Assembly (NCBI GenBank): GCA_963678705.1
Contig: CAVMBN010000150.1
Coordinates: 45,613 to 109,612, forward strand
Origin: Panorpa germanica
Lineage: Eukaryota > Arthropoda > Insecta > Mecoptera > Panorpidae
Direction of reading: 5' to 3'
DNA: 64,000 nucleotides
A program made the translations under genes and the position numbers. A model generated the notes under the pieces. That model did no database searches, was not told the DNA's origin, and worked only from the letters and a program-made list of their open reading frames with translations. This document shows positions 8,540 to 35,583 of the stretch, piece by piece; position 1 is the stretch's first letter; each line of letters opens with the position of its first letter.

Positions 8540-8571
<32 letters not shown>

Positions 8572-8660: not shown

Positions 8661-8755
8661 TGCCACCTAGGATGGCTTAGTTGGTTAAGTTGTGTTAAAA
8701 AAAAAATATTCTATAACACCCTATTCGCGCTTCGAGTTCGATTCTCGTGAGAACA
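8661..8755 (+). promoter_or_regulatory. tRNA-like segment with A and B box inside the TIR
   Basis: TGGCTTAGTTGG fits an RNA polymerase III A box, and GTTCGATTC fits a B box within a small T-arm-like hairpin (CGAG-loop-CTCG). A possible anticodon-stem pair GTGTTA/TAACAC encloses an A-rich loop too large for a normal tRNA. It is therefore a tRNA-derived or tRNA-like promoter element rather than a clean tRNA gene. A copy in the right TIR has a changed B box. Confidence 0.4.
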
Positions 8756-9113
8756 ACATCAAAGGTAAAATTTCTCGCGAACAACATAGAACGGTATAAA
8801 TCACACAGGTACAAAAAAAATAAAAACAATGCAGAATTGAACAACATAGAACGGAATAAATCATAGGTAAAAATAAAAACATATAATTTGAAATAAAACA
8901 CTTTTTTGTTGTTAAAAAAAACTAGGATAATTTTTATTTTATTGTAAATATTAAAAAAAAAAAAATACATTATATATATATATATATATATATATGATTA
9001 GAAAAAAGGACTATAAAAAATCTGATAAGAAAACCACCACACACATACACACACACACACACACACCCCAACCCTTCATTTTTAGTGGTGTGATTAAAGT
9101 TTATATTAAGTAT

Positions 9114-9451
9114 ATTACAGTATTTATATTTACATTTTTTTCTAGTCCCAACGATCAATTACTTTTAGCGGTAAACAATGTACTAATTAATAGATCATTG
9201 TTAACATGAACTTATATATACATTTTTCAACCCCCTCCACTTCTTTATAATTTTTTTCCTTGGTAACAAAAAAAAATTGTACAAGCCCCCCACCCCCCTC
9301 CCCATCCTGTGACAATTATATACCGGAAACATAGATTATTTTTGTGGTTTACGTCAATTAAAAACTATTTTTTGTGTGTGGGCGTGTGGTTTAAAGTTGT
9401 TTTTTTTTGTTAAACAATGGAAATTTCCACTGGAAACATATATTTTTTTGC
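9114..9451 (+). repeat. Direct repeat copy 1 flanking the TIR gene cassette
   Basis: The segment attacagtatttatattta...ctagtcccaacgatc...tttttttgc is repeated as 9453-9481 plus 9837-10151. The second copy is split by about 355 bp that hold a small ORF. The right TIR has the corresponding sequence once, without the ORF. Confidence 0.85.
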
Positions 9452-9529
9452 ATTACAGTATTTATATTTACATTTTTTTTTGTTGTGTATATATTTTTAT
9501 ATCAATGAAAAAAATATTATTATATTAAC

Positions 9530-9829
9530 TTAACGTACAATGGAAAAATGGGTATTAGTTCCCGTTTGTCTGATGATGTGTAGTTTTAGATTTCCTTCAT
9601 GTGCTTCTTCGTTTAATCTAGGTAGGTCTTTGTCCCCCATTAATTTCTTAAAGCGTTGATTCAGGAAAATATAGAAATCTTCAAGTTCCATCATTACTCC
9701 TTTTTTTCCATAACGACCATCGTTTGGTTGGAAATTTAGAATTTTGTAATAGGATCCGGCTTCCAGGCTTGATAGAACCCTTACTTCCTTTTGTACAGCG
9801 AGATTATTTAATTTTTCCAAAAGATCCAT
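9530..9829 (-). CDS. Small conserved-looking protein within the left TIR
   Basis: A 99-residue protein starting at an ATG (MDLLEKLNN). It has a pattern of alternating hydrophobic strands, with a central ELEDFYIFLNQRFKKL segment. Small proteins with a similar 'ledf..fLp.Rf' centre accompany several arthropod mobile elements; I infer an OB-fold-like or other small beta protein, but function is unknown. It lies between two direct repeats in the left terminal repeat and is absent from the right one, so it looks like a late insertion. The frame is intact. It reads toward the left element end, opposite to the fibre-like gene. Confidence 0.6.
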   Translation of the reverse strand: MDLLEKLNNLAVQKEVRVLSSLEAGSYYKILNFQPNDGRYGKKGVMMELEDFYIFLNQRFKKLMGDKDLPRLNEEAHEGNLKLHIIRQTGTNTHFSIVR

Positions 9830-9836
9830 ATTTTTT

Positions 9837-10230
9837 TTCTTCTAGTCCCAACGATCAATTACTTTTAGCGGTAAACAATGTACTAATTAATAGATCATTG
9901 TTAACATGAACTTATATATACATTTTTCAACCCCCTCCACTTCTTTATAATTTTTTTCCTTGGTAACAAAAAAAAATTGTACAAGCCCCCCACCCCCCTC
10001 CCCTTCCTGTGACAATTATATACCGGAAACATAGACTATTTTTGTGGTTTACGTCAATTAAAAACTATTTTTTGTGTGTGGGCGTGTGGTTTAAAGTTGT
10101 TTTTTTTTGTTAAACAATGGAAATTTCCACTGGAAACATATATTTTTTTGCGGTTTATACCAATTAAAAATTAAATAAAAATGGTATCTTATCAACACAT
10201 TTCTTTGTGTGGTTTAAAGTTGTTTTTTTT
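9837..10230 (+). repeat. Direct repeat copy 2 and inner end of left TIR
   Basis: Repeats 9140-9451 almost exactly, then continues as inverted match to 23860-23947 of the right TIR (segment with caattaaaaattaaataaa). The right TIR has this inner part twice (23705-23860 and 23860-23947 regions), so both ends have been reshaped by tandem duplication. Confidence 0.8.
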
Positions 10231-10298
10231 TAATAATAATTTTGTTGTTTTTTTTTATATATATACTCATAATTATTAAATTGAAAATCAAAGATACA

Positions 10299-10862
10299 AT
10301 GTCAGTCGATAAGTTTGGTCGATATTATTATGAATCTAATTAATATGGTGAAGGGAAAAAATGTCATGGTCTGCCTGGCATTGGATTTGTTTTAACGGAT
10401 GATAATAATTATGATATGGAATCGAGGCGATTAGTGAATTTAAGTGAACCGAGTGATGAAAATGATGCAACTACAAAAAAATATGTTGATGGAATAATAG
10501 AGAACAAAGTAATGGTTAAAGTAGAGGGTTTAATACAGAATTTTTCAAGTGCACATCTGACAAAAGTTGAGGGTTTTATAAATAGTAATTTAAATGAACA
10601 AAATACAAGAAATGCTAAATATAATAATGATATTGTCATATTAAATAGCAAATTAAATAATAGTACAGCGGCTTTAGATAATAAAATTAAACAGATAGTT
10701 GATGTTATACCGGTAATTATAGATTCAAAAATATCTGGAGCTATAAATAACAAACTTAAAACGGACCTTGATAAAATAATAGAGAAAGCTGTAACAAAAT
10801 ATGTTTCAGACCAAGTTAGTGCAATTGATAATAAAATTTTAAAGGACCGACAAATGAATTGA
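10299..10862 (+). pseudogene. Fibre-like coiled-coil protein, premature stop
   Basis: ATG at 10299 starts MSVDKFGRYYYESN, then TAA at 10341-10343 interrupts. The same frame runs on to 10862, with ATG 10416 as a possible downstream start (148 residues). It carries DENDATTKKYVDG, which resembles the 'DAATKkYVD' motif of phage tail-fibre and other trimeric fibre shafts, followed by heptad-like hydrophobic spacing and many Asn/Lys residues (coiled coil). This fits a receptor-binding fibre at the penton vertex, by analogy with adenovirus; that role is inference. It sits just inside the left TIR on the + strand. The stop removes the conserved N-terminal tail if no readthrough or internal start is used. 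Confidence 0.6.
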
Positions 10863-11088
10863 CATATTTGAGAAAGCTGAAACAAAATTAATTTTTGGAT
10901 AAAATTGAAAAATAAAAACACATAAGTTCGATAATGTTAATTTTTTTTTTATTAATTAATTATACATAAGTTAGATAATATTAATTAATTTTTTACTTGA
11001 ATTAGATGTAAATGTGAATCTGAAAAAAATAAACATATCAGTACTTGATATTATTTATATATAATAATTTTTTTAATTCAACACATAC

Positions 11089-11394
11089 CTAAATATCTAT
11101 GTCCGTTTCATATCCATCATCGTCATACATTAGGGGTGGTACAATTTCTGCTGCAACATTCGTATGTTCAAGATATACACTATTGGCATAACAATGTCCA
11201 TTTCGCACATGAAATTTATAATACCCATAAGCATTACCATTCTCCTCATAATATATGCGCACAGTAAAATATGATAAAATAGGGTCAATATTTAGTACAT
11301 TTAGTAGGACGACACCACTAGCTAGATTATTTAACTTAATAAGACACCCCATACGTCCATTATGATATCTTAAACCATATATATATGGTTTCAT
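11089..11394 (-). CDS. Hypothetical protein of Polinton-1
   Basis: About 101 residues from ATG 11394 (MKPYIYGLRYHNGRMG); an in-frame GTG five codons upstream is less likely. Composition is rich in Tyr, Asn and Val with an acidic end (DDDGYETDIDI). The alternating hydrophobic pattern suggests a beta fold. No family is recognised. It lies between the fibre-like gene and PolB, on the opposite strand to both, and has no visible counterpart in Polinton-2. Confidence 0.5.
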   Translation of the reverse strand: MKPYIYGLRYHNGRMGCLIKLNNLASGVVLLNVLNIDPILSYFTVRIYYEENGNAYGYYKFHVRNGHCYANSVYLEHTNVAAEIVPPLMYDDDGYETDIDI

Positions 11395-11718
11395 TAATTG
11401 TTGTTGCACTAATATTAATTAATGGTTTTAACTCAACACTTATAAAACGTATGCGTCCACTGCGTCCAGACATTGTTCTTTTTTTAATGTGTGTTTCAAC
11501 GAAATATGTACACAGTAAAATTATCAGTTCCTGTTGTACCCCACTAGTCCCTCGCCATCACTCCCCCCTCCTCAACATAAGATGTTTAAGTTTTTTTGTT
11601 TTTTTACACCAGTTGTCTATATATACATATACATATATTCATATATATTGGGCAGAAAATCTAAAACATAAATTAGTAATAGTACTACTATCACACAAAT
11701 CGTTTGAAAAAATTAAAA

Positions 11719-14700
11719 ATGCCACCACAATGGGAAGATATTTGTACAGCATTCAAAATGCGTGTATTTTGTAGAAAATTAGTAAATGTGAACCATATAG
11801 TTAATCCACTAATATTTATGGAACAGTGCAAAGTTCCACTAATGAATAAAATTGTTGGTTTCTTGTCATCTAATAATCATGTGTTTAAAATTCAGTGTCA
11901 AGTAGTGTGTGAATATTTTGTTCATAAGAATAGCGAAGAGATTATTAGTACAATAGCGCATAATACTAAGATGATTTCTTTAACACTAAGTGATAATCCA
12001 AATGTATGGTTTAGTGAAAATATTATTTCAAGTATAAAGGTGCGATTAGATGAATTTCAAGAGCGTGATAGCGGGAAGTCATTAAATAGTGTACTATACC
12101 TGCAGGTGAACATTAATAAACATAATCCGTTGCATGGAAGTTCCTATCTTCCATTACCACCATCTATAAGTTTTAAAAAAGCTGTGATAAATGTTCAAAA
12201 TATGGACGACAGGTGTTTTTTGTGGGCTATTATTTCGGCGTTGTATCCATCTAAGAATCATCCTGAAAGAGTTTCAAATTATAAAAAAATCAATCAAAAT
12301 GAAGTATTCAACCTAAATAATGTAGTATTTCCAATGCAATTCAATAATATATCTAAAATCGAATTACAAAATAATATTTCAGTTAATGTCTATGGTCTAG
12401 AATTAAATAATAAGCATGTTTGGAATGTAATTGGGCCATTGCATTACACAAAATATAAAAATGCATATAATAAACATGTTAATTTATTATATATAAAGAG
12501 TGGTAATAAGGGGCACTATTGTTGGATAACGGACTTAGGTAAACTTATAGGAGGTCAACTTTCTAAGGCAAATGTTAAGAAACATATTTGCGATCGCTGT
12601 TTACAATATTTCTATAATGCAAATAAGTTTCAGTGCCATATAGAAGATTGTAATAAAGTTGATAATGCGGTTAAAATTGAAATGCCTGTGGGAGATGAAA
12701 AGTGGTTAAAATTTAAAAACTATATGAGAAAGGAGAAACACCCTTTTGTTATTTATGCAGACTTTGAATGTTTAACCCTACCCATTGATACTTGTGCACA
12801 AGATTCTAGTAGATCATACAGTAATAACTACCAAAAACACATTCCGTGTGCCGCTGGCATTCAATTGGTGCGCTCATATGATAATACAATATCATTTTTC
12901 CAGTCATATTGCGGTAAAGATGTTATAAATTGGTTTTTACAACAACTCAAAATAATTATAAAAGATATTGAGGTACTTTATGCAAATATCAAACCTATAC
13001 AAATGACGGATGCCGATTGGTTGGATTTTAATAATTCCATTACCTGTCACATATGTGAAAAACATTTTAACTTAGCAGATGACAATTTTAAAAAAGTGCG
13101 CGATCATTGTCACTTATATGGTCAATACCGTGGCAGTGCACATTATACATGTAATTTAAATTATCAACAACCAAATTATATTCCTGTTTTTTTGCATTGC
13201 TTAAGCGGCTATGATAGTCATCTTTTTATACGTGATTTGGGAATAGATGATGGGCAAATTGATATTATACCATCAAATGAGCAAAAATATATATCATTTA
13301 GTAAGACAATTGGTAAATTTAAATTGCGATTTTTAGACTCGTTTAAGTTCATGAACGGGAGCCTAGAAAAACTAGCTAGTTATATGGATGTATCAAATTT
13401 TACATTATTGAGAAAATGTTTTCCCTCACCAAACGATGATGATAAATTTAATTTAATGATTAAAAAAGGTATTTTTCCTTATGACTACTTTAATTCATGG
13501 GATTCCTTTGACGAAATTAATTTACCATTAAAAGAAAATTTCTATTCCAAGTTAAAAGATGAACATATTTCCAGTGCTGATTATAACCATGCCAAAGATG
13601 TATGGCAAAAGTTTAAAATACAAAATCTTGGTGAATACATGATGCTTTATTTGAAATCGGATGTACTGTTGTTAAGCGACATTTTTGAGAATTTCAGAAA
13701 TGTTTGCTTAAAATCATATTCATTGGATCCCGTACATTATTTTACAGTGTCAGGATACACCTGGGATTGTATGCTAAATATAACCAATATAAGGCTAGAG
13801 CTGTTAACTAATATTGATATGCTGTTATTTTTTGAGCGTGGCATTAGAGGTGGTATTACCCAGGCTATAAAACGTTATTCATGTGCGAATAACCCATATC
13901 TGTCTAATTTTGATGCGAATAAGCCAGAAAAATATATAATGTACTATGATGCATGTAATTTGTATGGCTGGGCTATGACGCAATGTTTACCATATGGTAA
14001 TTTCCGGTGGTTAACAAGTTCTGAAATAAAACAGCTTGATATATTAGCTATTTTAGATAATGATTCCAATGGGTATGTGTTTGAAGTAGATTTGGAATAC
14101 CCTAGGGAGTTACATGATATGCACAAAGATTTTTCATTATGCACAGAGAAAATGAACCCACCCGGAACTAATAAAAGCAATATAAAACTTATGACTACCT
14201 TAACTAATAAATATAAGTATATAATTCATTCAATGAACCTAAAACAATGTGTTACTTTGGGATTAAGAATTATTAAAATTCATAGGGCTATAGTATTTTC
14301 ACAATCATTTTGGCTAAAAAAATATATCGATTTAAATACGGATTTTAGGAAATTATCCAAAAATGATTTTGATAAAAATTTTTATAAGTTAATGAATTGC
14401 GCCATTTTTGGCAAATCGATGGAAAATATTAGAAAATATAGAAATATCAAATTGTGCACTAGGTGGGAGGGTCGATGTGGAGCACAGAATTTGATTTGTA
14501 GACTCAATTTTAAGAAACTAAGTATTTTTGCGGAAAATCTTATATCTGTTGAATTGAATAAATCATCAATTAAATTTAATAAACCCATATATATTGGAAT
14601 GTGTATTTTAGACATTTCCAAACACTTAATGTATGACTTTTACTACAATTATATACAGAAGACATATAAAGAGGTTACACTGATGTATATGGATACGGAT

Positions 14701-15183
14701 TCTATGATTTTGGAAATAATCAATCAAAATCCATATGAACAAATGAAACGGGATATTGCAAAATTTGATACATCTGATTATGCACTAGATAACATATTCA
14801 ATATACCGCAAGCAAATAAAAAGGTTGTTGGCCTAATGAAGGATGAGGCGAATGGTAAAATCATAAAGGAATTTATTGCTTTGCGTGCTAAAATGTATAG
14901 CATCAAAATTGAGGGTGTAAATAAACTTATTGCCAAGGCAAAGGGTGTATCAAATGTTGTTGTAGGTCGCCTTTCTTTTGATGATTACAAGGACTCACTA
15001 TTCAATAATAATTTAAATTATAAATGCCAAAATGCAATTAGGTCTAAGGACCATAACTTATACACAATAGAGCAAAACAAACTAGTCTTAAGTGCTAATG
15101 ATGACAAAAGGTTTATATTAGTTAATAAGACAAATACATTGCCATATGGCCATTATAGAATAAATGATCTGATAAATGAGTGA
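11719..15183 (+). CDS. polB: Protein-primed family B DNA polymerase
   Basis: About 1154 residues, starting at ATG 11719 (MPPQWEDI); the longer frame starts at a TTG and is not used. It replicates the element from its TIR ends with a protein primer (family knowledge). Visible motifs: Zn-finger CDRC..H (about 290), exonuclease ADFE (350), a CHIC..HCH..C zinc motif like endonuclease VII (443-482), exonuclease YDSHLF (498) and YLKSD (644), polymerase motif A YYDACNLYG (741), motif B NCAIFGKSMEN (892), motif C YMDTDS (about 991) and a KMY motif (about 1060). All catalytic residues appear present and the frame is open. Convergent with the integrase gene, 38 bp away; an aataaa follows at about 15204. 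Confidence 0.95.
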   Translation: MPPQWEDICTAFKMRVFCRKLVNVNHIVNPLIFMEQCKVPLMNKIVGFLSSNNHVFKIQCQVVCEYFVHKNSEEIISTIAHNTKMISLTLSDNPNVWFSENIISSIKVRLDEFQERDSGKSLNSVLYLQVNINKHNPLHGSSYLPLPPSISFKKAVINVQNMDDRCFLWAIISALYPSKNHPERVSNYKKINQNEVFNLNNVVFPMQFNNISKIELQNNISVNVYGLELNNKHVWNVIGPLHYTKYKNAYNKHVNLLYIKSGNKGHYCWITDLGKLIGGQLSKANVKKHICDRCLQYFYNANKFQCHIEDCNKVDNAVKIEMPVGDEKWLKFKNYMRKEKHPFVIYADFECLTLPIDTCAQDSSRSYSNNYQKHIPCAAGIQLVRSYDNTISFFQSYCGKDVINWFLQQLKIIIKDIEVLYANIKPIQMTDADWLDFNNSITCHICEKHFNLADDNFKKVRDHCHLYGQYRGSAHYTCNLNYQQPNYIPVFLHCLSGYDSHLFIRDLGIDDGQIDIIPSNEQKYISFSKTIGKFKLRFLDSFKFMNGSLEKLASYMDVSNFTLLRKCFPSPNDDDKFNLMIKKGIFPYDYFNSWDSFDEINLPLKENFYSKLKDEHISSADYNHAKDVWQKFKIQNLGEYMMLYLKSDVLLLSDIFENFRNVCLKSYSLDPVHYFTVSGYTWDCMLNITNIRLELLTNIDMLLFFERGIRGGITQAIKRYSCANNPYLSNFDANKPEKYIMYYDACNLYGWAMTQCLPYGNFRWLTSSEIKQLDILAILDNDSNGYVFEVDLEYPRELHDMHKDFSLCTEKMNPPGTNKSNIKLMTTLTNKYKYIIHSMNLKQCVTLGLRIIKIHRAIVFSQSFWLKKYIDLNTDFRKLSKNDFDKNFYKLMNCAIFGKSMENIRKYRNIKLCTRWEGRCGAQNLICRLNFKKLSIFAENLISVELNKSSIKFNKPIYIGMCILDISKHLMYDFYYNYIQKTYKEVTLMYMDTDSMILEIINQNPYEQMKRDIAKFDTSDYALDNIFNIPQANKKVVGLMKDEANGKIIKEFIALRAKMYSIKIEGVNKLIAKAKGVSNVVVGRLSFDDYKDSLFNNNLNYKCQNAIRSKDHNLYTIEQNKLVLSANDDKRFILVNKTNTLPYGHYRINDLINE

Positions 15184-15221
15184 TATATATATATATATAT
15201 GTGAAATAAAAAGAAATATAT

Positions 15222-16166
15222 TTAATTTAAATCTGTTTTATTTATACATGAATTATGTTTATTTTTAAAACCCAACCATTTTACAAATACTTTATTTTTA
15301 TTTGTTTTTAAAATCTTCTCCACCAAATATACATCAGTATATTTTGCTTTTTGCAATTCCTTTTCATAAAAGCCCCCCTCAATATTTTGGCCGGTTGTGT
15401 CCTCCAATTTATAGGTTACCGGATTTGTTCTACACACCTTTTTAATAATAAATATTTCTGTTGACCAATTTGGTTCATAGCCTTTGCTAAAGAGACTCTT
15501 CACTTTGCTAATGCGTACAGAATCACCAATACGATATTTTGATATTCCTGCAATTTTAATGTGATTATAAATAGTGTTAAGTAATTTTTTTTCGACTTTT
15601 TTCGATGTCACATCAATTGGTTTCATTTTTATTGTAGAATGTTTTGTATTATTATAAGTTTGTAATAAGTCCTCTAATATATTTATCCATTTATGTGATC
15701 CTTGATAGCTAAATTTTTTCCACATATTAGTTTTCAGGGTCCTGTTAAATCTTTCGCATACACTGGCCTTCATTATTGAATATGTAGAATAATGTTTTAT
15801 ATTATATTTTTTCATAATTTTATTAAAAGTTGCATTATAAAATTCCTTTCCATTGTCTGTTTGCAAAAATTTCGGTATACGGCCTCCATCCAAGATATTA
15901 ATAAAAGCATTTGTAACATCATTACCAGTTTTTGTTTTTATGGCTTTAGCCCATGCATATTTTGAGAAAACATCTATTACGGTAAGCATATATTTATAAC
16001 CTTTATTTTCAGATGCATAAGGTATCATTTCAACCAAATCACATTGCCATAGGTCATCAATACCTTTTGTTATTACTCGTCTACGTGCATATTTTTTATA
16101 CGCTGGTTTATGGATTTCTTCAACTATTTGTAATTTTATATCTTTTTTTTTATTATTATTGGTCAT
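15222..16166 (-). CDS. int: Polinton integrase, DDE type with chromodomain
   Basis: 314 residues from ATG 16166. The retroviral-type core has Asp in QCDLVEM, Asp in QTDNGKEF and Glu in VCERFNRT, with 33 residues between the last two. A WxRxxG-like SH3 region follows, and a C-terminal chromodomain (YLVEKILK...VKWLGF) ends the protein. It inserts the element and makes 6-bp duplications, as seen at both ends here. All three catalytic acids are present. It is separated by 13 bp from the next upstream reverse gene, suggesting one leftward unit of ATPase, unknown protein and integrase. The N-terminal HHCC zinc finger of retroviral enzymes is not evident. Confidence 0.93.
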   Translation of the reverse strand: MTNNNKKKDIKLQIVEEIHKPAYKKYARRRVITKGIDDLWQCDLVEMIPYASENKGYKYMLTVIDVFSKYAWAKAIKTKTGNDVTNAFINILDGGRIPKFLQTDNGKEFYNATFNKIMKKYNIKHYSTYSIMKASVCERFNRTLKTNMWKKFSYQGSHKWINILEDLLQTYNNTKHSTIKMKPIDVTSKKVEKKLLNTIYNHIKIAGISKYRIGDSVRISKVKSLFSKGYEPNWSTEIFIIKKVCRTNPVTYKLEDTTGQNIEGGFYEKELQKAKYTDVYLVEKILKTNKNKVFVKWLGFKNKHNSCINKTDLN

Positions 16167-16179
16167 TATTGATATTTAT

Positions 16180-17007
16180 TTATTCAATTATATGTGATTC
16201 TCTTAACTCTTCAATGATAGATATAATTTCATTATCATGACCTGTATGACCAGCCTGTTTTGAGCCTAATAATAATCTTAAACGTTCAACTAATTCATTA
16301 GCATCATTCCAATAAATATACTCATTATTTTTATTCGATACTATTTTATGTGATGGTGATATTAATCCTTCACCTTTTGTTTTTAAATTAAGGGCTGGTT
16401 TAATTATCTGTACGTATTTCCATCCCGCATTACCACTTATTTGACCATTAGGATCATAATTACGTCTATATGCGTTTGTATCTTTAATGATATTGATAAA
16501 ATTTTCCTTATCTTCTTCCGTATAACCTAGTGGTTTTTTCAATTGTAATAGTTGATATAGGCCTTCTGTTCCAGCATACAATTTACTATTAATGACTATA
16601 TTATTATTTTCGATTGTTATTGGCGTTTTACCAATAAAGAATTTATTGTCACCACCTATAGTAATTCCATATATTTTATCTTCAATAGGTTGATTTATTA
16701 AATATCTAAATGCGATATCACCAATGGACTTAACACTATTGGCATCAACTAAATGTGGTTCATTATTTTTATATGATGACAACTTCTTATCATCATATTC
16801 ATCATCATCATCAATATTTTCTTTTTTTTTTTTTAATGCATTATGTTGTGATTTTATCTCTACAAGTGGTTCTGTTATAGGCTTAAATATTTTTTCCAAA
16901 TATTTTTGCTCTTCATAATCACTATATTTTAGAGCTTTATATTTTGAACGAATTATTTTACTCTTTGCAATAATATCTTTTAATATGTCATTATTATTAT
17001 TAAACAT
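16180..17007 (-). CDS. Conserved Polinton protein of unknown function
   Basis: Best start is ATG 17007 (MFNNNNDILKDII), giving 275 residues; the longer frame only adds translated TA microsatellite. It has a charged N-terminal half with a Lys run and an Asp-rich patch, then a compact domain with IYGITIGGDNKFFIGKTPI, a GTEGLYQLL segment and YRRNYDPNG. The C-terminus carries GSKQAGHTGHDNE. A homologue sits at the same place in Polinton-2 (50861-52114), with the C-terminal motif kept. Proteins of this type accompany Polintons in many invertebrates, but I know no function. It lies between ATPase and integrase on the same strand. Confidence 0.8.
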   Translation of the reverse strand: MFNNNNDILKDIIAKSKIIRSKYKALKYSDYEEQKYLEKIFKPITEPLVEIKSQHNALKKKKENIDDDDEYDDKKLSSYKNNEPHLVDANSVKSIGDIAFRYLINQPIEDKIYGITIGGDNKFFIGKTPITIENNNIVINSKLYAGTEGLYQLLQLKKPLGYTEEDKENFINIIKDTNAYRRNYDPNGQISGNAGWKYVQIIKPALNLKTKGEGLISPSHKIVSNKNNEYIYWNDANELVERLRLLLGSKQAGHTGHDNEIISIIEELRESHIIE

Positions 17008-17028
17008 ATTTTCGAGTTGTTTTCTTTT

Positions 17029-17029
<1 letters not shown>

Positions 17030-17068
<39 letters not shown>
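17030..17068. repeat. TA microsatellite
   Basis: A run of about 19 TA units lies between the start of the unknown protein gene and the end of the ATPase gene. It artificially lengthens the open frame of the former. Confidence 0.9.
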
Positions 17069-17138
17069 AGCAGATAGCTAGACAAAAGTTATCATTCAAC
17101 TAAACGATTTACTACTAAATATTCTATTATATATATAA

Positions 17139-17834
17139 TTACAGTTTCAAGAAATTATCAAATACATTTCTATATCGTCCGTTAGCGATATCGCTATCCT
17201 TATCAATGACCACATATCCATATTTATTTTTCCAACATTCTGAACAGAACTCTTTAAAGGTTAAAAATGACATATCTGTATTTACATGATCATTATAAAT
17301 ATGCTTAAGATTCATTTCGTCCATTTTAAATAATATTATAAAATTTGCATTATCTCTGATTAAATGTTTTGGTATATGGGCATAGGTTTGACAAAGATAA
17401 AAGGAATCAACTAGGAAATGACGTCCCATTGAGAAATAATTACGCATACAATCTTGTTTATCAGTAATTACATCATCAAAGATAAATACAGAATTTGGTT
17501 TTGCATCATTGGGCTTAATAATATCAATGTTACTGTCATAACAAAAATAGCCTATTTCTTTCACATGTGATAACACTTTTTTTAAAAAAATATATTTTGG
17601 TTGATATAATGATTTGGAATAGAGATATATATTTCTAAATTTTAAGCCATTTTTTTCAAATAAAAGAGCCAACATAATATTAGTTTTTCCAGAATTCGAT
17701 GGCCCACATATAATACATCTTATAATATTTGGTAGTAAATCACCATGTTTTTTCACTTTCTTTTTTTTATCATTTTCATCTAAATTATCTAGATTTGCAA
17801 TATGTAAATGTTTTTTTTGCTTTATAAATTTCAT
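17139..17834 (-). CDS. Genome-packaging ATPase (FtsK/HerA, A32-like)
   Basis: 231 residues from ATG 17834. Walker A GPSNSGKTN is at residues 44-52 and the Walker B-like SVFIFDDV at 115-122. The protein is of typical length for Polinton/adintovirus packaging ATPases, which drive DNA into the capsid. The frame is intact with the Walker lysine present, unlike the Polinton-2 copy, where it is Arg. Its start codon lies 57 bp from the start of the divergent PLA2/pX gene, so the two likely share a promoter region. Confidence 0.92.
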   Translation of the reverse strand: MKFIKQKKHLHIANLDNLDENDKKKKVKKHGDLLPNIIRCIICGPSNSGKTNIMLALLFEKNGLKFRNIYLYSKSLYQPKYIFLKKVLSHVKEIGYFCYDSNIDIIKPNDAKPNSVFIFDDVITDKQDCMRNYFSMGRHFLVDSFYLCQTYAHIPKHLIRDNANFIILFKMDEMNLKHIYNDHVNTDMSFLTFKEFCSECWKNKYGYVVIDKDSDIANGRYRNVFDNFLKL

Positions 17835-17891
17835 TGTATATATATATGCACGTGTTACTTATATATTACATCATTTAATGCTTAGACACCA
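17835..17891. promoter_or_regulatory. Probable bidirectional promoter between ATPase and PLA2/pX genes
   Basis: Only 57 bp separate two divergent start codons. The spacer contains TATA-like runs (tatatatatat near 17837 and tatatatta near 17861) and little else. Polinton-2 keeps the same divergent pair with an 89-bp AT-rich spacer (49872-49960). Function is inferred from position. Confidence 0.4.
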
Positions 17892-18707
17892 ATGATCATA
17901 TACCATGGTGAGGGCTTATTAAATAGGGCCATAAATTCATTGCCTATAGAATTACATATGCCCGGTTATAATTTTTGTGGTCCAGGAACAAAGTTAAAAA
18001 AACGTCTGTTACGCGGTGACAATGGAATTAATGATTTAGATAATGCATGTAAAGAGCATGATATTTCTTATTCTAAATCGAAAAGTGATTTAAAGTTAAG
18101 ACATCACGCGGACAAGATATTGCAGGAAAAAGCTTGGTCAAGAGTTGTATCCAAAGACGCCTCTATTAAGGAAAAAGCGGCTGCTTGGGCAGTTACTAAT
18201 GCAATGAAAATCAAACAGAAGTTAGGTATGGGCATCAAGAGAAAAAACAAGAAAAAAATTAACATGAAATTGGAAACAAATCATAATACGTTTAGGAAGG
18301 CTATAAGAAGCGCTAGTGCGGCAATAAAAAAATCGAAAATAAAAAATACAAGTACTGCAATAAAAGTTGCATTGAAAGCTGCAAAAAAAATCATTAAAGG
18401 AAAAAAACCGAATATTAAGTCACGAATTATACCAATTCCTAAAACAGGTGGAATTCTTCCCTATCTAATACCATTATTTGCGGGATTATCAGCCGCGGGG
18501 GCCCTAGCGGGTGGTGCTGCTGGCATAACAAAGGCTGTTACAAGCGCTAATGCGGCAAAGAAAAAATTACATGAATCAGAGAGACATAATAAGATGATGG
18601 AGGCCATCGCATTGGGTAAAAAGGATGGTAAAGGTCTTTACTTAAAACCTTATAGAAAAGGTTTGGGCCTTTACTTATCACCACCACCGACAACAAAAAA
18701 CTATTAA
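17892..18707 (+). CDS. Phospholipase A2 / pX-like membrane-active virion protein
   Basis: 271 residues. The N-terminal domain (17-75) is a parvovirus VP1-type phospholipase A2: calcium-loop motif YNFCGPGT (26-33) and catalytic CKEHDISY with His56-Asp57. A lysine-rich middle follows. Residues 186-212 form a hydrophobic Gly/Ala segment (GGILPYLIPLFAGLSA) like the membrane-active segment of adenovirus pX, and the end repeats a GLYL-kP motif twice. Such a protein would breach endosomal membranes and bind DNA in the virion (inference from families). The homologue in Polinton-2 keeps all these parts. The last codons contain a slippery A AAA AAC, and the stop TAA follows at 18705-18707. Confidence 0.85.
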   Translation: MIIYHGEGLLNRAINSLPIELHMPGYNFCGPGTKLKKRLLRGDNGINDLDNACKEHDISYSKSKSDLKLRHHADKILQEKAWSRVVSKDASIKEKAAAWAVTNAMKIKQKLGMGIKRKNKKKINMKLETNHNTFRKAIRSASAAIKKSKIKNTSTAIKVALKAAKKIIKGKKPNIKSRIIPIPKTGGILPYLIPLFAGLSAAGALAGGAAGITKAVTSANAAKKKLHESERHNKMMEAIALGKKDGKGLYLKPYRKGLGLYLSPPPTTKNY

Positions 18708-18751
18708 AAATATCAGTTAAAGATTTACCTAAGAGGGCTTTAACTGATATT
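18695..18751 (+). promoter_or_regulatory. Probable programmed -1 ribosomal frameshift signal
   Basis: The heptamer A AAA AAC (18695-18701) is in the correct phase (codons aca aaa aac). A 7-nt spacer containing the zero-frame stop follows. Then comes a perfect stem, atatcagttaaag (18710-18722) with ctttaactgatat (18738-18750), extended by one A-T pair to 14 bp, with a 15-nt loop. Slippage of -1 enters the protease frame at 18701. Polinton-2 has the same in-phase heptamer (reverse strand, 44584-44590) just before the stop of its PLA2/pX gene, with only a weak 6-bp hairpin after it. Confidence 0.75.
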
Positions 18752-19090
18752 GACTTAAATAAATATGCAAAAAAAATCCCCTATTTTAGAGGTATTTTCA
18801 TGCGTAATTCATTACCAAAGCATCCATATGAAAATGAATGTGCCATAATAAATTTAGATAATAAAACGGGTCCTGGAACGCATTGGGTTGCATACAGAAA
18901 ATTCAAATCGAATATTGAATATTTCGATAGTTTTGGTAACCTGGGGCCACCTAAGGAATTGCTCGAATATTTTCTACAAAGAAATTTAAATAAAAACAAA
19001 ATAATTTATAATTATAAAAAATTTCAAAATTATAATACATATAATTGTGGACATTTATGCCTAAAGTTTTTAATAAATACTATGAAATAA
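18701..19090 (+). CDS. Adenain-type maturation protease, likely made by -1 frameshift
   Basis: The frame runs from the slip site to 19090 (129 codons); the first ATG is only at 18800 (96 residues). Catalytic residues counted from that ATG are His28 in GTHWVAY, Asp43 in YFDSFG, Gln76 and Cys83 in NCGHLCL; the Gln-Cys spacing of 7 equals that of adenovirus protease. It cleaves capsid precursors during maturation (family role). The 33 codons before ATG 18800 include ALTDIDLNKYAKK and YFRGIF. They align to the Polinton-2 copy, so they are conserved protein although no ATG lies there. This supports translation as a fusion with the PLA2/pX protein. Internal initiation at 18800 or splicing remain alternatives. 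Confidence 0.85.
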   Translation, partial: LLKISVKDLPKRALTDIDLNKYAKKIPYFRGIFMRNSLPKHPYENECAIINLDNKTGPGTHWVAYRKFKSNIEYFDSFGNLGPPKELLEYFLQRNLNKNKIIYNYKKFQNYNTYNCGHLCLKFLINTMK

Positions 19091-19114
19091 GATTCTTTTT
19101 ATTCATTATCAATT

Positions 19115-19813
19115 ATGACCTTTACACTTAGTGGTAATACATCCATATTAAGCACAAATTATTTTCCACCCATTGAATTGGATAGGAAATTTGAATATGT
19201 ACTCGGATTAGTTGATTTACAAACATATAATTCAATACCGAATGTCCATGAGAAAAATAATCGATTTTATTACAATGATGAAGTTCTAATAATACCTGAA
19301 GGCTCCTATGAAATTGATGACATATATAAGTATATAAATAACACAATAAGTAAGAACAAGTCACTTAAATATTTTCTTACTATAAATGCCAATAATAATA
19401 CGCTTAAATGTGAAATAATAAGTTCGTTGGTGATAAATTTTGAAAAGGAAAATAATATTGGTTCACTATTGGGTTTCAAAAAGAAAATATTGCAACCATA
19501 TACAAATCATATATCCGATTTGCCCATAGATATTTTGGGTGTAAGTTCAATACAAATTGATTGTAATATTATAAGAAATTCTTATAGAAATAACCAACTA
19601 ATACATATAATACATCAATTCTTTCCTGTTGTGCCGCCTGGTTATAAAATAGTGGAAATACCCTCCAATGTAATATATTTACCCGTAAATGTTCATACAA
19701 TCAATAACATAACATTGAAACTGATTGATCAAAACGATAAGTTAATTAATTTTAGAGGTGAAAATATTACAATAAGACTGGAATTAAAGAAAATATCAAA
19801 AAATGGGTATTGA
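19115..19813 (+). CDS. Penton-like minor capsid protein
   Basis: 232 residues from ATG 19115. It matches the conserved Polinton minor capsid protein: early FPPIELDRKFEY, YNSIPNV, GSYEIDDI, a GSLLGFK segment, then PPGYKIVEIPSNVIYLPV and NFRGENITIRLELK at the end. In Polintons this single jelly-roll protein is thought to form the capsid vertices. The frame is intact, and it lies 24 bp after the protease. Its last 11 bases overlap the start of the next small ORF. The Polinton-2 homologue is frameshifted. Confidence 0.88.
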   Translation: MTFTLSGNTSILSTNYFPPIELDRKFEYVLGLVDLQTYNSIPNVHEKNNRFYYNDEVLIIPEGSYEIDDIYKYINNTISKNKSLKYFLTINANNNTLKCEIISSLVINFEKENNIGSLLGFKKKILQPYTNHISDLPIDILGVSSIQIDCNIIRNSYRNNQLIHIIHQFFPVVPPGYKIVEIPSNVIYLPVNVHTINNITLKLIDQNDKLINFRGENITIRLELKKISKNGY

Positions 19814-19982
19814 TTTCAATATAAATACTACAACAAACATAAACAGAATTAGTACGCTGCCTGTGGAGGATCAAGCCACATGTAAAAAAAAAAGAAGAAT
19901 AATTAAAAAAAATAATAATAAACTATCGGTTATTAATAAGCAATTTTTAATTGCACAAGGATTTAAATTGAAGAAAAAATAG
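19803..19982 (+). CDS. Small basic protein between penton and major capsid genes
   Basis: 59 residues from ATG 19803, overlapping the penton stop by 11 bp and ending 9 bp before the capsid ATG. It has a short neutral N-terminus, a basic patch (KKKRRIIKKNNNK) and a conserved tail LSVINKQFLIAQGFKL. A decayed copy lies at the same place in Polinton-2 (42454-42599), with the tail kept after a frameshift (KNKQFFKSLGFKL). Conservation of tail and position argues that it is real. By position it resembles the small basic core proteins that adenoviruses encode between penton and hexon; a DNA-condensing role is inference. Confidence 0.75.
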   Translation: MGIDFNINTTTNINRISTLPVEDQATCKKKRRIIKKNNNKLSVINKQFLIAQGFKLKKK

Positions 19983-19991
19983 AAAAAAATC

Positions 19992-21203
19992 ATGAGTAAT
20001 ATTTTAAATATTAATCAAAAAGCCACATTTGATAATACAATTAAACGTGTGGAATGGCATAATTATATCCCATATGCGGCCACAAGCTATGATAACAATG
20101 ATGAGATAAGAATTCCAATTCATTTTCAAGATATTTATACGTCACCATGGGATAGTTATATAACCATTGAGGGTAATTTGTTAACAAAAGACGGTGCTGC
20201 ACTTCAATCGCATAACGCCAAATTATGCAACAATGGATTCGCATTTTTGTTTGATGAAATAAGATATGAATTGTTTGGAATTGAAGTTGATAAAGTTAAA
20301 AATGTAGGCATTACAACCACAATGAAGGGCTATGCTTCTTTAAATAGCACTGATAAGATTGGATATGCAATCGCTGGATGGGATAATAGTGCTTCAATTA
20401 TAGATAAAAAAGGTTATTTCAGTGCATCTATACCATTGAAATTGCTCTTAGGCTTTGCAGAGGATTATAAATTTATGATAGTAAATGCTAAACAAGAACT
20501 AGTATTGATAAGATCTAGAAGTGATGCTAATGTTTACATATCTGAAACAGAATACAAAATTAATATAGCTAAAATTCAATGGCGTATAAAACATATACTT
20601 CCAAGTGATGAGGAAAGATTAGTATTATTAAATAAATTAAATAAAATGGATCCGATTGAAATATCGTTTAGAAGCTGGGACCTTTATGAATATCCTATGC
20701 TGCCAAATACTGATAACCAATTGTGGACAATTAAAACAACAACCCAATTGGAGAAACCACGTTATATTATTTTAGCATTTCAAACAAAAAGACATAATTT
20801 GCATAATGCAAATACAAGTGCATTTGATCATTGTAATATAAGAAATGTAAAATTACATTTGAATTCAGAATATTATCCATATGAAAGTTTAAATATTAAT
20901 TTTAGCAAAAATCAATACAATATTTTATATGAAATGTATCTACAATTTTCAACTTCATATTATCATAATAATAAATATAATCCATTTTTAACGTGGTCAG
21001 ACTTTAAAAATTCGGCACCATTAATAGTAATTGATTGTTCTAAACAAGATGATGCATTAAAACATGGAACTGTTGATATCAAATTAGAATTTGAATCTTC
21101 GGAAAACTTTCCACCGGATACTACTGCATTATGTCTTTGTCTTCACGATAAAGTATTAGAATATATTCCCTTGTCTGGAATAGTTAGACCCACTTATAAA
21201 TAG
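19992..21203 (+). CDS. Major capsid protein (double jelly-roll, hexon-like)
   Basis: 403 residues from ATG 19992. Motifs seen in Polinton/adintovirus major capsid proteins are present: WHNYIPYAA and NNDEIRIPIHFQDIY at the N-terminus, FLFDEIRYELFGIEVD near residue 90, and a C-terminal LIVIDCSKQDD with VDIKLEFES. It builds the icosahedral shell (family role). The frame is intact. It is followed 44 bp later by the metalloproteinase gene on the same strand. The Polinton-2 counterpart at 41261-42457 is broken but aligns at both ends. Confidence 0.88.
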   Translation: MSNILNINQKATFDNTIKRVEWHNYIPYAATSYDNNDEIRIPIHFQDIYTSPWDSYITIEGNLLTKDGAALQSHNAKLCNNGFAFLFDEIRYELFGIEVDKVKNVGITTTMKGYASLNSTDKIGYAIAGWDNSASIIDKKGYFSASIPLKLLLGFAEDYKFMIVNAKQELVLIRSRSDANVYISETEYKINIAKIQWRIKHILPSDEERLVLLNKLNKMDPIEISFRSWDLYEYPMLPNTDNQLWTIKTTTQLEKPRYIILAFQTKRHNLHNANTSAFDHCNIRNVKLHLNSEYYPYESLNINFSKNQYNILYEMYLQFSTSYYHNNKYNPFLTWSDFKNSAPLIVIDCSKQDDALKHGTVDIKLEFESSENFPPDTTALCLCLHDKVLEYIPLSGIVRPTYK

Positions 21204-21247
21204 CATTGTTTTTTAATATAGATTAGTATAACTTTGCTATTGCAAGA

Positions 21248-22816
21248 ATGATGTTCTCCCGTTATATTATTATTATTTTATTTTTAAATGTATTCTTATA
21301 TAGTCAGGAGTTAGATATTAAGCAATATTTATATGAATATGGCTATTTAGAATTTAATAATGAGAGTGAATTGCAATTAATTGGACCGGATAATATTAAA
21401 TATTTGCAGGCATTAGCTTTATTTCAAGAAAATTTTAACATAAATAAAGATGATAATGCATTGAATGAAACTATAGCACTAATGAAGGCTCCAAGGTGTG
21501 GTGTATCAGATAGTGCAATGTTAAATCATGCTAATAAACTAAAATGGGATAATCATAATATCACATGGCATTTCCATCGAGCACCACCGAAACTATTACA
21601 ACTCGCTCAATTAGCCTTTGATGTATGGTCTGAACATGCAAATATTAAATTTATACATAATTTTACTAATGTCAATATTCTATTAAGTTTTGGCACTAGG
21701 CGACATAATAATTTTCAACATTACAAACAAAGAAGTAAATGTAGTGCAATTTTCGATGGTCCTGGAGGCATTATAGCGCATGCTGATTTCCCTGAAAAAA
21801 ATAACCTGTACAAAGAAATACATATAGATAATGATGAGACATGGAATATAGAAATAAAGCCAAATGAAGAGAAATTAAATTTATTACATGTATTGATTCA
21901 TGAAATTGGTCATTCTATTGGTTTTCATCATACACAGAATACCAATTCAATTATGTATCCAATATATTCATATAGAAATGTTAGTTCAGAATTAGTATTA
22001 GATGAGGAAGATATAAACTCAATTAGTTCACTATATGGTAAAAAAAAAATTAAACGGATATCAAATAATAGACCGCAAGAAACGACCACAGAAGAAGTGA
22101 GTACAGAATCTATTGCGGTTACAACAATATCAACCACAACACACTCTAAAGATAAACCAAATATATATCCAGATTTATGCAAAGTGAATAACTTAAATAC
22201 ATTTTTAATCATTAATGATATGCTCTATGTATTTTATAAAAGATATGTTTGGATCAAAGAACTTAATAATGAAAAATATAGTTCCGAACCTTTTCTGATC
22301 ACCGATTGGAAATTTTTACCTGAAAACTTTACAGAGATAACAGCCATTTATAGACGACCCAATGGAAATATTGTAATAATTATAGAAGCAGAAACATATA
22401 ATATAAAATTTCCATCTTTACAATTAGATAACATTGTAAAACCATATTCAAATAATATAAAAAATATACAGGGTATTGTTCACACAAATACCGGAAACAC
22501 TTATCTGTTTTATGATAACACATACTATTTAACAATATCTGAATGTGAATATAGAACAATTGAATACGGTAGAATTGATAAAAAATTTATAGGTATACCA
22601 TCTAATATTGATGGCGTATTCAAATATACAAATGGTAGAATATATTTTTTTAAAAATAATAATATCTATTATGAATATAATGAGTTTACAAATGCTATTG
22701 AAAAAGCCGGTGAATTTAGTCGTTTAATCTTTAATATAAATTGTCCAAACATATCAATTTTGCAACAATTACAAAATTTATTATCAAAATTAGCCGACTA
22801 TAATTTTATTAATTAG
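21248..22816 (+). CDS. Secreted matrix metalloproteinase with hemopexin-like domain
   Basis: 522 residues. Signal peptide at 1-20 (MMFSRYIIIILFLNVFLYSQ); propeptide with cysteine switch PRCGVSD at 82-88; catalytic domain with zinc motif HEIGHSIGFHH (218-228) and Met-turn SIMYP (Met236); Thr/Ser/Glu-rich linker (about 270-300); C-terminal four-bladed hemopexin-like domain (about 305-500) with Cys at both ends. Everything needed for a latent secreted protease is present. Such enzymes cut basement-membrane proteins. The gene is intronless, AT-rich like its neighbours and lies in the capsid gene block, so it was probably taken from an arthropod host long ago. The frame is intact. aataaa follows at about 22823. 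Confidence 0.93.
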   Translation: MMFSRYIIIILFLNVFLYSQELDIKQYLYEYGYLEFNNESELQLIGPDNIKYLQALALFQENFNINKDDNALNETIALMKAPRCGVSDSAMLNHANKLKWDNHNITWHFHRAPPKLLQLAQLAFDVWSEHANIKFIHNFTNVNILLSFGTRRHNNFQHYKQRSKCSAIFDGPGGIIAHADFPEKNNLYKEIHIDNDETWNIEIKPNEEKLNLLHVLIHEIGHSIGFHHTQNTNSIMYPIYSYRNVSSELVLDEEDINSISSLYGKKKIKRISNNRPQETTTEEVSTESIAVTTISTTTHSKDKPNIYPDLCKVNNLNTFLIINDMLYVFYKRYVWIKELNNEKYSSEPFLITDWKFLPENFTEITAIYRRPNGNIVIIIEAETYNIKFPSLQLDNIVKPYSNNIKNIQGIVHTNTGNTYLFYDNTYYLTISECEYRTIEYGRIDKKFIGIPSNIDGVFKYTNGRIYFFKNNNIYYEYNEFTNAIEKAGEFSRLIFNINCPNISILQQLQNLLSKLADYNFIN

Positions 22817-22895
22817 GAGAAATAAAACAAAATTGTATTTTATTATACATATATATATATATATATATTAATAAAAAAAAAGATAATACATGAAA

Positions 22896-23225
22896 TTATT
22901 GTGTTTTATTTACATCATAAAATAATAAAGCATATAAATCTTGTTGTACAAAATTTGAATAATAAAAAAGCATTTCCATATAAGCTAAATTTAGCAGTGT
23001 ATTTGCTTTATCATTACTTTCATCATCTTCATTTATAGATTTATTTATAAAATCAAATGATTTTTCATTTGATAATACTGCTAGTCTCATTATTTTTAAA
23101 TAATATTCATTAAAATTTAAACTACTTAAATGATTTATATGTCTGTTTAACATAGTGTTTATTTTTAAAATACATATAAAAATTTTCTTATTAAAACAAA
23201 ATTCATTATTCATCCATAATATCAT
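22896..23225 (-). CDS. Hypothetical helical protein
   Basis: 109 residues from ATG 23225; a start at the Met in INTMLNRHINHL is also possible. It is mostly predicted helical, with hydrophobic spacing and an acidic patch (INEDDESNDKAN). I recognise no family. It sits between the metalloproteinase and IAP genes, reads against both, and has no counterpart in Polinton-2. A Bcl-2-like or other small helical accessory fold cannot be judged by eye. Confidence 0.45.
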   Translation of the reverse strand: MILWMNNEFCFNKKIFICILKINTMLNRHINHLSSLNFNEYYLKIMRLAVLSNEKSFDFINKSINEDDESNDKANTLLNLAYMEMLFYYSNFVQQDLYALLFYDVNKTQ

Positions 23226-23245
23226 AAAATTCCTTTTATCTTTAA

Positions 23246-23707
23246 TTAGACACGAATGAAATTCATGCTGGAGAAAAAGACACTACAATTTGCTTTTATT
23301 GTAATGGGGGATTAAAACTTTGGAAAGAAACCGATGTTCCATGGGAAGAACATGCATTACATTTTTATAATTGTGCATATGTTATATTGTTAAAAGGTAA
23401 ATCATTTATAAAATACATAGCATCAGTGAAAAATAGAATACTTACACCTGAAGAAATTATTCGTATTAAGAAAAGTGTGCTTCCATCTCATCCTCGACCT
23501 GTATTTCAATCACATAACACCAATATAAATGAAAAATGTCATTTATGAGATATTAAATTGTGTAATATTTGTTATTTTCAACAAAAAGAAATTGCCTTTA
23601 TTGCATGTGGACACATTATTGCATGCATTAAATGTTCCGTATCCTTAAAAAAATGCCCAAAGTGTTATATGCCATACAATGGCTTAATAAAAATTTCCAT
23701 TGTTTAA
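23246..23707 (+). pseudogene. iap: Inhibitor of apoptosis (BIR + RING) remnant
   Basis: The frame 23246-23707 encodes the C-terminal part of a BIR domain with its zinc ligands CFYC, His (16 residues later) and Cys (6 later), including GGLKLW and PWEEHA. An ordinary linker and a C3HC4 RING finger (CNIC...CGH...CIKC...CPKC) follow. An in-frame TGA at 23546-23548 separates BIR and RING, and no ATG precedes the BIR: the N-terminal part is missing or frameshifted. Insect viruses use such proteins to block host cell death. Here the gene is broken but both zinc domains keep all visible ligands. The stop TAA lies directly at the right terminal repeat. Confidence 0.88.
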
Positions 23708-23946
23708 CAAAAAAAAAAACCAAAAAAACCAATAAAAACAACTTTAAACCACACAAAGGAATGTGTTGATAAGATACCGTTTTTATTTAATTTTTAATTG
23801 GCATAAACCGCAAAAAAATATATATGTTTCCGTGGAAATTTCCATTGTTTAACAAAAAAAAAACCAAAAAAAAAACAACTTTAAACCACACAAAGAAATG
23901 TGTTGATAAGATACCGTTTTTATTTAATTTTTAATTGGTATAAACC
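23708..23946 (-). repeat. Inner tandem duplication next to the right TIR
   Basis: The segment caactttaaaccacacaaag to tttccattgtttaacaaaa occurs twice in tandem (about 23745-23855 and 23877-23985). One copy matches the inner end of the left TIR (to 10230). Confidence 0.7.
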
Positions 23947-24822
23947 GCAAAAAAATAAATGTTTCCAGTGGAAATTTCCATTGTTTAACAAAAAAAAACA
24001 ACTTTAAACCACACGCCCACACACAAAAAATAGTTTTTAATTGACGTAAACCACAAAAATAATCTATGTTTCCGGTATATAATTGTCACAGGAAGGGGAG
24101 GGGGGTGGGGGGCTTGTACAATTTTTTTTTGTTACCAAGGAAAAAAATTATAAAGAAGTGGAGGGGGTTGAAAAATGTATATATAAGTTCATGTTAACAA
24201 TGATCTATTAATTAGTACATTGTTTACCGCTAAAAGTAATTGATCGTTGGGACTAGAAAAAAATGTAAATATAAATACTGTAATATACTTAATATAAACT
24301 TTAATCACACCACTAAAAATGAAGGGTTGGGGTGTGTGTGTGTGTGTGTATGTGTGTGGTGGTTTTCTTATCAGATTTTTTATAGTCCTTTTTTCTAATC
24401 ATATATATATATATATATATATAATGTATTTTTTTTTTTTTAATATTTACAATAAAACAAAAATTATCCTAGTTTTTTTTAACAACAAAAAAGTGTTTTA
24501 TTTCAAATTATATGTTTTTATTTTTACCTATGATTTATTCCGTTCTATGTTGTTCAATTCTGCATTGTTTTTATTTTTTTTTTACCTGTGTGATTTATAC
24601 CGTTCTATGTTGTTCGCGAGAAATTTTACCTTTGATGTTGTTCTCACGAGAAACGAACTCGAAGCGCGAATAGGGTGTTATAGAATATTTTTTTTTTAAC
24701 ACAACTTAACCAACTAAGCCATCCTAGGTGGCACAATATTTACATGTTAATAAAAAATTCTTTCATTTCAACCAAACAACCAGTAGTTGTCAAAATGTTG
24801 GTAAACAATTCGTAATACAGAC

Positions 24823-24864
<42 letters not shown>

Positions 24865-25221
24865 GACCCCCCCACGACACAACCCTCTGACCAACCCCAC
24901 ACCGACACCTACCACACACAGACAGACAGACACCTACCCCACCCATACACCTGACACACACACACCTGCTGCCCCACACACCTGAACAACCCCCTTTACC
25001 ACCACCCTGACAACACCACCCACCCTTGACCACCCCTGACAACAACCACCCTTCAACAACAACCCTTAACCCCACCCCTGGGTGACCTTTAACCCTGTGA
25101 CCTTGACCTACATGACAAGATAACCACAACTGATAACAATGACAAGATAATGACAAGATAATGACAAGATAACAAGGTGTCATCCTTCCGGTTGGCCCAG
25201 GATCCCTATAACTTATCTACT
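23947..25221. repeat. Polinton-1 right terminal inverted repeat
   Basis: Inverted match of 8164-9451, with CA/GT microsatellite, TA microsatellite and tRNA-like segment in the same order. It ends ATAACTTATCTACT at 25221 and is followed by the CACATA duplication. It lacks the ORF cassette found in the left repeat. Confidence 0.92.
24638..24733 (-). promoter_or_regulatory. tRNA-like segment, right TIR copy
   Basis: Reverse-strand counterpart of 8661-8755. The A-box-like sequence is unchanged; the B-box-like core has one change (GTTCGTTTC), so this copy may be less active. Confidence 0.35.
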
Positions 25222-25227
25222 CACATA
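25222..25227. other. Target-site duplication of Polinton-1, right copy
   Basis: CACATA, identical to 8158-8163. Confidence 0.93.
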
Positions 25228-26106
25228 GTAGGATCTGTTATGGCTAACTTTGTTAACACAGGTACAATAATTCCATTTATTCGTTTAACCTGGCCATTAC
25301 CCCTTGGTACTCCTGTAGTTATTAACACATGTTCAATGTTTTCTGCAGTACAATAATCTTTGTAATCTGTTGAAGTAAAAGGTGTACCCCTGTCAGAAAT
25401 TACCCTTCTTGGGTTTCCGAATACTTCTGCTATCACTTTCACTTTCTGTAATACTTCATTAGTGCCTGTTGATTTAGTAGAGAACAACCAAACAAATTTT
25501 GTAAAAGCATAAACTATAACGAAAATATGTTTATACTTTTTGCTTGTTGTTTGTAAAGGTCCTAAATGGTCTATATGCCAAGTGTTTAAAGGTAAACCTA
25601 CCTTAGGTAAATAGTTTAAGCATCCTTTTACTTTACCTACTTTTCTGGTTGCCAGTATACATTCTAAGCAATTATCTATACAGTTGTTAATCTTTTCAGC
25701 TAATTCATTGATCTTAAATTCCCTGTTAATTATTTCTTGACATTTATTCAAGCCACAATGTCCTTTTTCCTGTGCCTTATGTATTATTTCTGCTTGCATG
25801 TTACTTGGTACTACTAACAGCTTTTGATCGTCTTTTAACCTGTATAATAATTCATTTTCTATTATATACTTTCCTGCATAGTTCTTTGCTTGTATCGTCA
25901 TCTTCGGCTTCGGAAAATGCTTGACGGCTTTGACCTTATCCTTAGAGGGACGAACAGTGCCTTGTTTAATTACATAACCTAGGTCGTTCATTTTCTGGGC
26001 TTCCTGTATTACATCCTTTTCTAACCCTTCATCCAGCTGCTCTTGAACATTTAGTCGATCTGCAGGTGGTAGTTTAAGTGGCCTAGAAAATATGGGAGTA
26101 TCATTT
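25228..26106 (-). pseudogene. pol: Gypsy-1 pol: RT remnant fused to integrase
   Basis: From the right, the frame holds the start of RT (FSRPLKLPP, LDEGLEKDVIQ). It jumps in frame to a post-catalytic RT segment (LGYVIKQGTVRPSKDKVKAV), then jumps again to the integrase zinc domain (KGHCGLNK, CLEC). The polymerase catalytic site and RNase H are gone. The integrase core has Asp in WHIDHLGP and SDRGTPF, but the third acid is replaced by Lys (GNGQVKRING). The frame is cut by Polinton-1 at 25227 and continues at 8163. The deletions preserve frame, so this was a non-autonomous but transcribed copy before. Confidence 0.85.
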
Positions 26107-35580: not shown

Positions 35581-35583
35581 GTT

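Follow-up and report, generated by a model that had tools for sequence, protein, structure and literature searches.

How Polintons and adintoviruses make their maturation protease and load it into particles has, to our knowledge, not been worked out. The question arises at a locus of Panorpa germanica, where an adenain-like protease gene follows a PLA2/pX gene in the -1 frame and lacks an ATG over its first codons. The window, i.e., the whole stretch of 64,000 nucleotides that was analyzed, is part of a 464-Mb assembly.

The Polinton element and its gene content

The features of the element and of the PLA2/pX-protease junction are listed in Table 1. The terminal inverted repeats are 262–454 nt long and 97%–99% complementary (8155–10231 versus 23867–25230). 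Together with these repeats, the rve integrase, A32-like ATPase, double jelly-roll capsid protein, and adenain-like protease assign the element to Polintons/adintoviruses. An open reading frame (ORF) at 11704–15183 (1,159 aa) has the size of a protein-primed PolB; its Pfam search gave nothing at 0.001 and a weak endonuclease VII match (0.0053). A Matrixin ORF (Peptidase_M10, E 7.4e-33), located directly 3' of the capsid gene at 21248–22816 (+), is an unusual Polinton cargo. An rve/H2C2 integrase (25224–25991, -) adjoins the Polinton end, and a Pao/BEL-type ORF pair (31477–35668, +) and a Copia-type reverse transcriptase (45692–47488, -) are present elsewhere in the window.

Table 1. Features of the Polinton and of the PLA2/pX-protease junction in the window
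Feature	Position	Strand	Evidence
Polinton element (approximate ends)	8155..25230		Long terminal inverted repeats
Integrase	15222..16166	-	Pfam PF00665 (rve), E 3.3e-13
Packaging ATPase, A32-like	17139..17834	-	Pfam PF04665, E 4.3e-12
PLA2/pX ORF, zero frame, 271 aa	17892..18707	+	PF08398 Phospholip_A2_4, E 4.9e-13
Overlap with the -1 frame already open	18656..18704	+	Frame reading
Slippery heptamer A AAA AAC, in phase	18695..18701	+	Sequence; kept in copies
Adenain-like protease, -1 frame, 129 aa + stop	18701..19090	+	Peptidase_C48, E 0.00029; adenain chains, E 4.3e-5 with profile A2
Zero-frame stop TAA	18705..18707	+	Sequence
14-bp stem-loop, family A only	18709..18751	+	Perfect arms, folding versus shuffles
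First ATG of the -1 frame, within the conserved PYFRGxFM stretch	18800..18802	+	Frame reading, adenain alignment
Double jelly-roll major capsid protein	19992..21203	+	PF21738, E 1.7e-113

Slippery site and reading frames at the junction

The last zero-frame codons of the PLA2/pX ORF are ACA AAA AAC TAT TAA, and the heptamer thus precedes the stop by one codon. The earlier note had described this junction as a retrovirus-like -1 frameshift signal, and its reading of the site was borne out: the heptamer is in the correct phase (18695–18701), the stop TAA begins on the fourth base 3' of it, the spacer is 7 nt long (18702–18708), and the protease is in the exact -1 frame, open from the slip site and without an ATG until 18800. 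The -1 frame is open even earlier, from 18656, and continues to a stop at 19088, with no Met before 18800.

For a codon-shuffled ORF, the probability of an in-phase A AAA AAC among the final five codons is 0.002. Among the final 20 codons, it is about 0.01, and that of any X XXY YYZ is about 0.27. The PLA2/pX ORF is A-rich, and X XXY YYZ occurs in phase at eight places in it. One of the others, at 18242, also reads A AAA AAC; the only one inside the open -1 overlap is that at 18695. Of the 350 Asn codons of the element, 44 are AAC, but the heptamer retains AAC.

Copies of the junction in the same genome

Copies were searched for in the same assembly, and 150 of 345 candidates were scored. Family A was sampled through every listed row above the 70% group (22 rows, one being the copy in the window, L006) plus L091. 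In-phase A6C and the -1 position of the protease are kept in 19 of these 23 copies. Among the exceptions, L016 (A7) and L019 have longer A runs and are in-frame, and L022 and L091 have A8 and are in +1. Family B is about 70% identical to family A and includes family C as a subgroup; 62 classed records, which cover some of the B/C copies in the genome, represent 57 distinct loci. At 55 of these 57, the heptamer, its phase, and the -1 relation are all retained, the exceptions being L043 (AAAAAAT in -1) and L080 (+1). The stop codon and the adjacent bases vary among families A, B, and C, and the heptamer is constant. Copies in one family are recent and therefore represent few independent events.

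An alternative explanation would be that decay or an assembly error split one fusion ORF; Polinton copies do decay, homopolymers mislead assemblers, and six classed loci deviate. Against it, 16 loci, counting that of the window, encode an identical stretch of 129 protease residues, in -1 at 15 of these, and the split recurs in families B/C, in the viral contig L050, and in the protein pair P0001/P0121, whose database contigs are equal in length and taken as one (see below). This explanation is hardly credible and was rejected on account of such repetition.

Families A and B were also compared over the protease. Upstream of the first ATG, the 29 codons that were aligned show 12 synonymous and 6 non-synonymous changes, and the differences at the three codon positions before 18800 number 8/1/16; in the rest of the protease, 19 codons differ synonymously and 32 non-synonymously. 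Judging by these substitutions, selection acts on the protein encoded in the -1 frame before 18800. The earlier note had rested the claim that these codons are translated on a likeness to Polinton-2; between families A and B, they are conserved as protein. The motif PYFRG of this stretch aligns to the N-terminal part of adenain, from residue 19, and would be lost with a start at 18800.

Distant virus contigs

The arrangement is present in one of the two IMG/VR contigs with a related protease. In the 19.4-kb contig L050, which encodes a protease with 37% identity and an adjoining A32-like ATPase, the upstream ORF ends with AAA AAA AAA AAC CCA GAG TTT TAA, and the protease is in -1, without an ATG until MRND, the counterpart of 18800. 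In the other contig, L117, the protease is encoded by a separate ORF that has an ATG of its own. L049 encodes a PLA2-like ORF with no protease adjoining it within the stretch examined. In the protein database, the ORF upstream of the L050 protease matched one protein, identical to itself, and searches of viral contigs with the L050 protease and upstream ORF recovered only their own contig. A search of the L050 record for the capsid family PF21738 gave no match, and its control had no match anywhere either; the capsid protein of the window gave no result against viral contigs.

The downstream stem-loop

The perfect stem proposed earlier is present, with 14-nt arms (18709–18722 and 18738–18751) and 15 nt between them. 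The 59 nt located 3' of the heptamer have a folding energy of -16.2 kcal/mol (z -5.36), equaled by 0 of 200 shuffles, and a 96-nt stretch has a z of -3.44, equaled by 2 of 200. Of 5,000 alternative codon choices for the same -1 protein, 0.96% fold equally well. Stable hairpins are not unique within the element, since 72 of the 4,866 segments of 59 nt in 17892–22816 are equally stable; they form four clusters, three of them in other places. Nine nucleotides of the hairpin loop (18724–18732) could pair with 18612–18620, about 100 nt upstream (89% complementary), probably by chance.

In families B and C, folding as a hairpin or a simple pseudoknot was no better than in shuffles, and no comparable stem was found. 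The fold at the L050 junction is weak (z -2.3 and -2.0 in short windows, -0.5 in a longer one). The stem was therefore rejected as a conserved, essential part of the signal, being absent from families B/C, which retain the heptamer. The earlier note had proposed to check whether heptamer and stem recur in other elements: the former does so in families A and B/C and in L050, and the latter is seen in family A, is absent from B/C, and is weak in L050. The conserved part of the predicted signal is the heptamer.

Relatives in protein databases

Among PLA2 homologues, the best-scoring 120 of 2,054 were compared as proteins related by common descent. In 116 of these 120, the protein ends with Lys-Asn followed by 0, 1, 2, or 5 residues (31, 72, 5, and 8 proteins, respectively); the background of Lys-Asn elsewhere in these listed proteins is 0.007 per residue. 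The residue before Lys-Asn is always (116 of 116) one of S, P, T, Q, L, A, K, and R, all of which have an A-ending codon, against a background of 81%. All eight five-residue tails are readable as LPx[RK][APSE]L in the -1 frame and none of the eight in +1, and the pattern occurred in 11 of 3,000 random and 100 of 2,400 shuffled tails. In these eight relatives, the protease motif comes straight after the slip codons.

The Lys-Asn tail could alternatively be kept for PLA2/pX itself, e.g., as a protease cofactor, the -1 relation being incidental. The tail of adenovirus pVI is a protease cofactor, and Lys-Asn is located at the extreme C-terminus, adjoining the conserved GxGLYL stretch. A role of this kind is very improbable: between GxGLYL and Lys-Asn there are 86 different sequences of 0–10 residues among 115 matched proteins, the preceding residue always permits an A-ending codon, and the tails match the protease in -1 only.

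Among protease homologues, 109 of the 120 best-listed (of 1,063) are called from a Met 1–22 residues ahead of the motif, a listing biased to ORFs with such a Met start because others are called short, e.g., P0121. The listing nevertheless shows that a start codon near the protease motif is common among relatives. Four PLA2/protease protein pairs, from a subset of the rows, were matched by the length of their contigs. P0001/P0121 has the same split as the window and fits the rule, P0029/P0240 and P0057/P0139 combine a Lys-Asn tail with a Met-start protease, and P0099/P0135 has no Lys-Asn and a protease with a Met start. In P0189, P0196, and P0216, the pX tail and the protease are in one frame; these are natural fusions or homopolymer variants. 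Profile searches of genome contigs for PLA2 and protease gave no result, and tblastn was likewise without a result, both for the protease against phages and for PLA2 against plasmids.

Synthesis of the protease from its own start, whether by splicing of the mRNA, by use of a non-AUG codon, or by reinitiation downstream of the PLA2/pX stop, would agree with the many relatives called from a Met just ahead of the motif, with P0099/P0135, and with the ATG of L117. On the contrary, the open -1 frame of the window has no ATG before 18800, the motif of eight relatives directly follows Lys-Asn, and the retained phase of the heptamer would be left unexplained. Splicing is further disfavored by the intronless ORFs of vertebrate Mavericks, as described in the relevant passages of PMC8097293. 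An independent start is therefore quite unlikely.

Poly-A junctions in family D

A fourth group, family D, includes 74 rows with at least 67% identity to L093, copies L093–L116 among them. Its junction was read in 21 rows, picked partly for variety. A pX-like ORF meets the protease at a run of A9–A14, followed by linkers of variable length, and the protease frame is open, without Met, from the A run to the QPLS motif in 21 of 21 rows. Relative to the upstream frame, the protease is in -1 in 9, in +1 in 7, and in-frame in 5 of the 21 rows read. Such a junction points to poly-A slippage, most likely by RNA polymerase, with homopolymer errors as a possible source of noise. In L114, a PLA2-like stretch recognized by eye is a separate ORF (L114:2–484), and pX and protease, with GSHW and CGHLC, are encoded in one 294-aa ORF (L114:514–1398).

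RNA polymerase could likewise add an A within the A6 run of the window, making part of the mRNA in-frame without any ribosome shift. The A7 copy L016 is already such a fusion in DNA, and family D, with its A9–A14 runs and floating frame, fits this explanation well. However, the pertinent part of PMC5009743 gives a run of 9 A/T for bacterial slippage, which exceeds A6 in length, and the C following the A run is kept. Moreover, polymerase slippage is indifferent to phase, yet the Lys-Asn phase is found in the 116 of 120 best-listed homologues. We consider polymerase slippage at A6C unlikely.

Proposed mechanism and its significance

Ribosomal -1 frameshifting similar to that of gag-pro is the favored route to a PLA2/pX-protease fusion, because of the heptamer, its phase, the -1 frame, the absence of an ATG before 18800, selection in the -1 frame, and conservation; we assign this prediction a probability of roughly 0.85. 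A_AAA_AAC is listed among the shiftiest -1 sites on mammalian ribosomes in the corresponding section of PMC5009743. Most ribosomes would finish PLA2/pX, stopping one codon past the heptamer, and a minority would move back by one base on A AAA AAC, continue in -1, and yield the fusion. The hairpin of family A may help slippage. This route would keep the protease scarce, and PLA2/pX could take the fused protease into the particle, where the protease would then cut itself free. The delivery into particles at a set ratio, put forward in the earlier note, is a prediction. The frameshift proposed in the earlier note is well supported by the conservation of heptamer and phase in related families and one distant virus; as a signal for all relatives it does not hold, given family D, L117, and the many listed proteases with a Met near the motif.

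A slippage-made fusion of the protease with membrane-acting pX/PLA2 may be a general and ancient strategy, shared by arthropod-type Polintons and by some Polinton-like viruses, and would then be the equivalent of gag-pro among DNA viruses. In this view, sites of ribosomal slippage (A AAA AAC) and poly-A sites took each other's place, and certain lineages changed to an in-frame fusion or to a protease start of its own. This broader reading is tentative, at slightly below even odds, having been given less weight because of the Met starts counted among protease homologues. A conserved recoding signal offers a directly testable answer to how the Polinton protease is produced and loaded, and recoding would explain proteases annotated as N-terminally truncated, like P0121, called from an internal Met. 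It would also mean that a DNA virus group and retroviruses came to use the same fusion trick for a capsid protease. Four Polinton groups with two kinds of slippage sites in one genome represent a natural experiment on site change.

Comparison with known systems

In the open-access literature on frameshifting in Polintons/adintoviruses, no PLA2/pX-protease case was found. A 2024 preprint (PMC11071296) suggests, for adintoviruses, that a slippery sequence could produce Hexon-Adenain (Hexain) fusions, and also names potential Penton slippage. The earlier statement that there was no report in these elements thus has to be narrowed to the PLA2/pX-protease pair. Both cases concern adintovirus-type elements, adenain, and a predicted slippery sequence with a -1 fusion. 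In the preprint, however, the partner is the major capsid protein, presented in one sentence without data in the passage concerned, whereas here it is PLA2/pX, and conservation was tested. In vertebrate Mavericks, the protease is placed after the capsid protein in the gene order given in PMC8097293. The Spodoptera Maverick has the same two genes, CAP (PLA2) and PRO, called virus-like in PMC5803895; unlike in the window, they are separate ORFs, and the passage describing them does not mention recoding. Poly(A)-run transcriptional slippage, as outlined in PMC5009743, resembles family D in that long A runs restore the frame, and differs from the window site, which is A6C with a fixed phase.

The window protease is adenain/C48-like and not a retroviral aspartic protease. 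The heptamer A AAA AAC is used at some gag-pro sites. As in the gag-pro of beta- and deltaretroviruses, according to the relevant parts of PMC3835772 and PMC5009743, a particle protein and a maturation protease would be joined by a -1 frameshift near the end of the upstream ORF. The window differs in having a DNA element, a cysteine adenain-like protease, no homology to gag-pro, and a non-conserved stimulator. By this comparison, gag-pro is a working analogy for the Polinton junction, not a relative.
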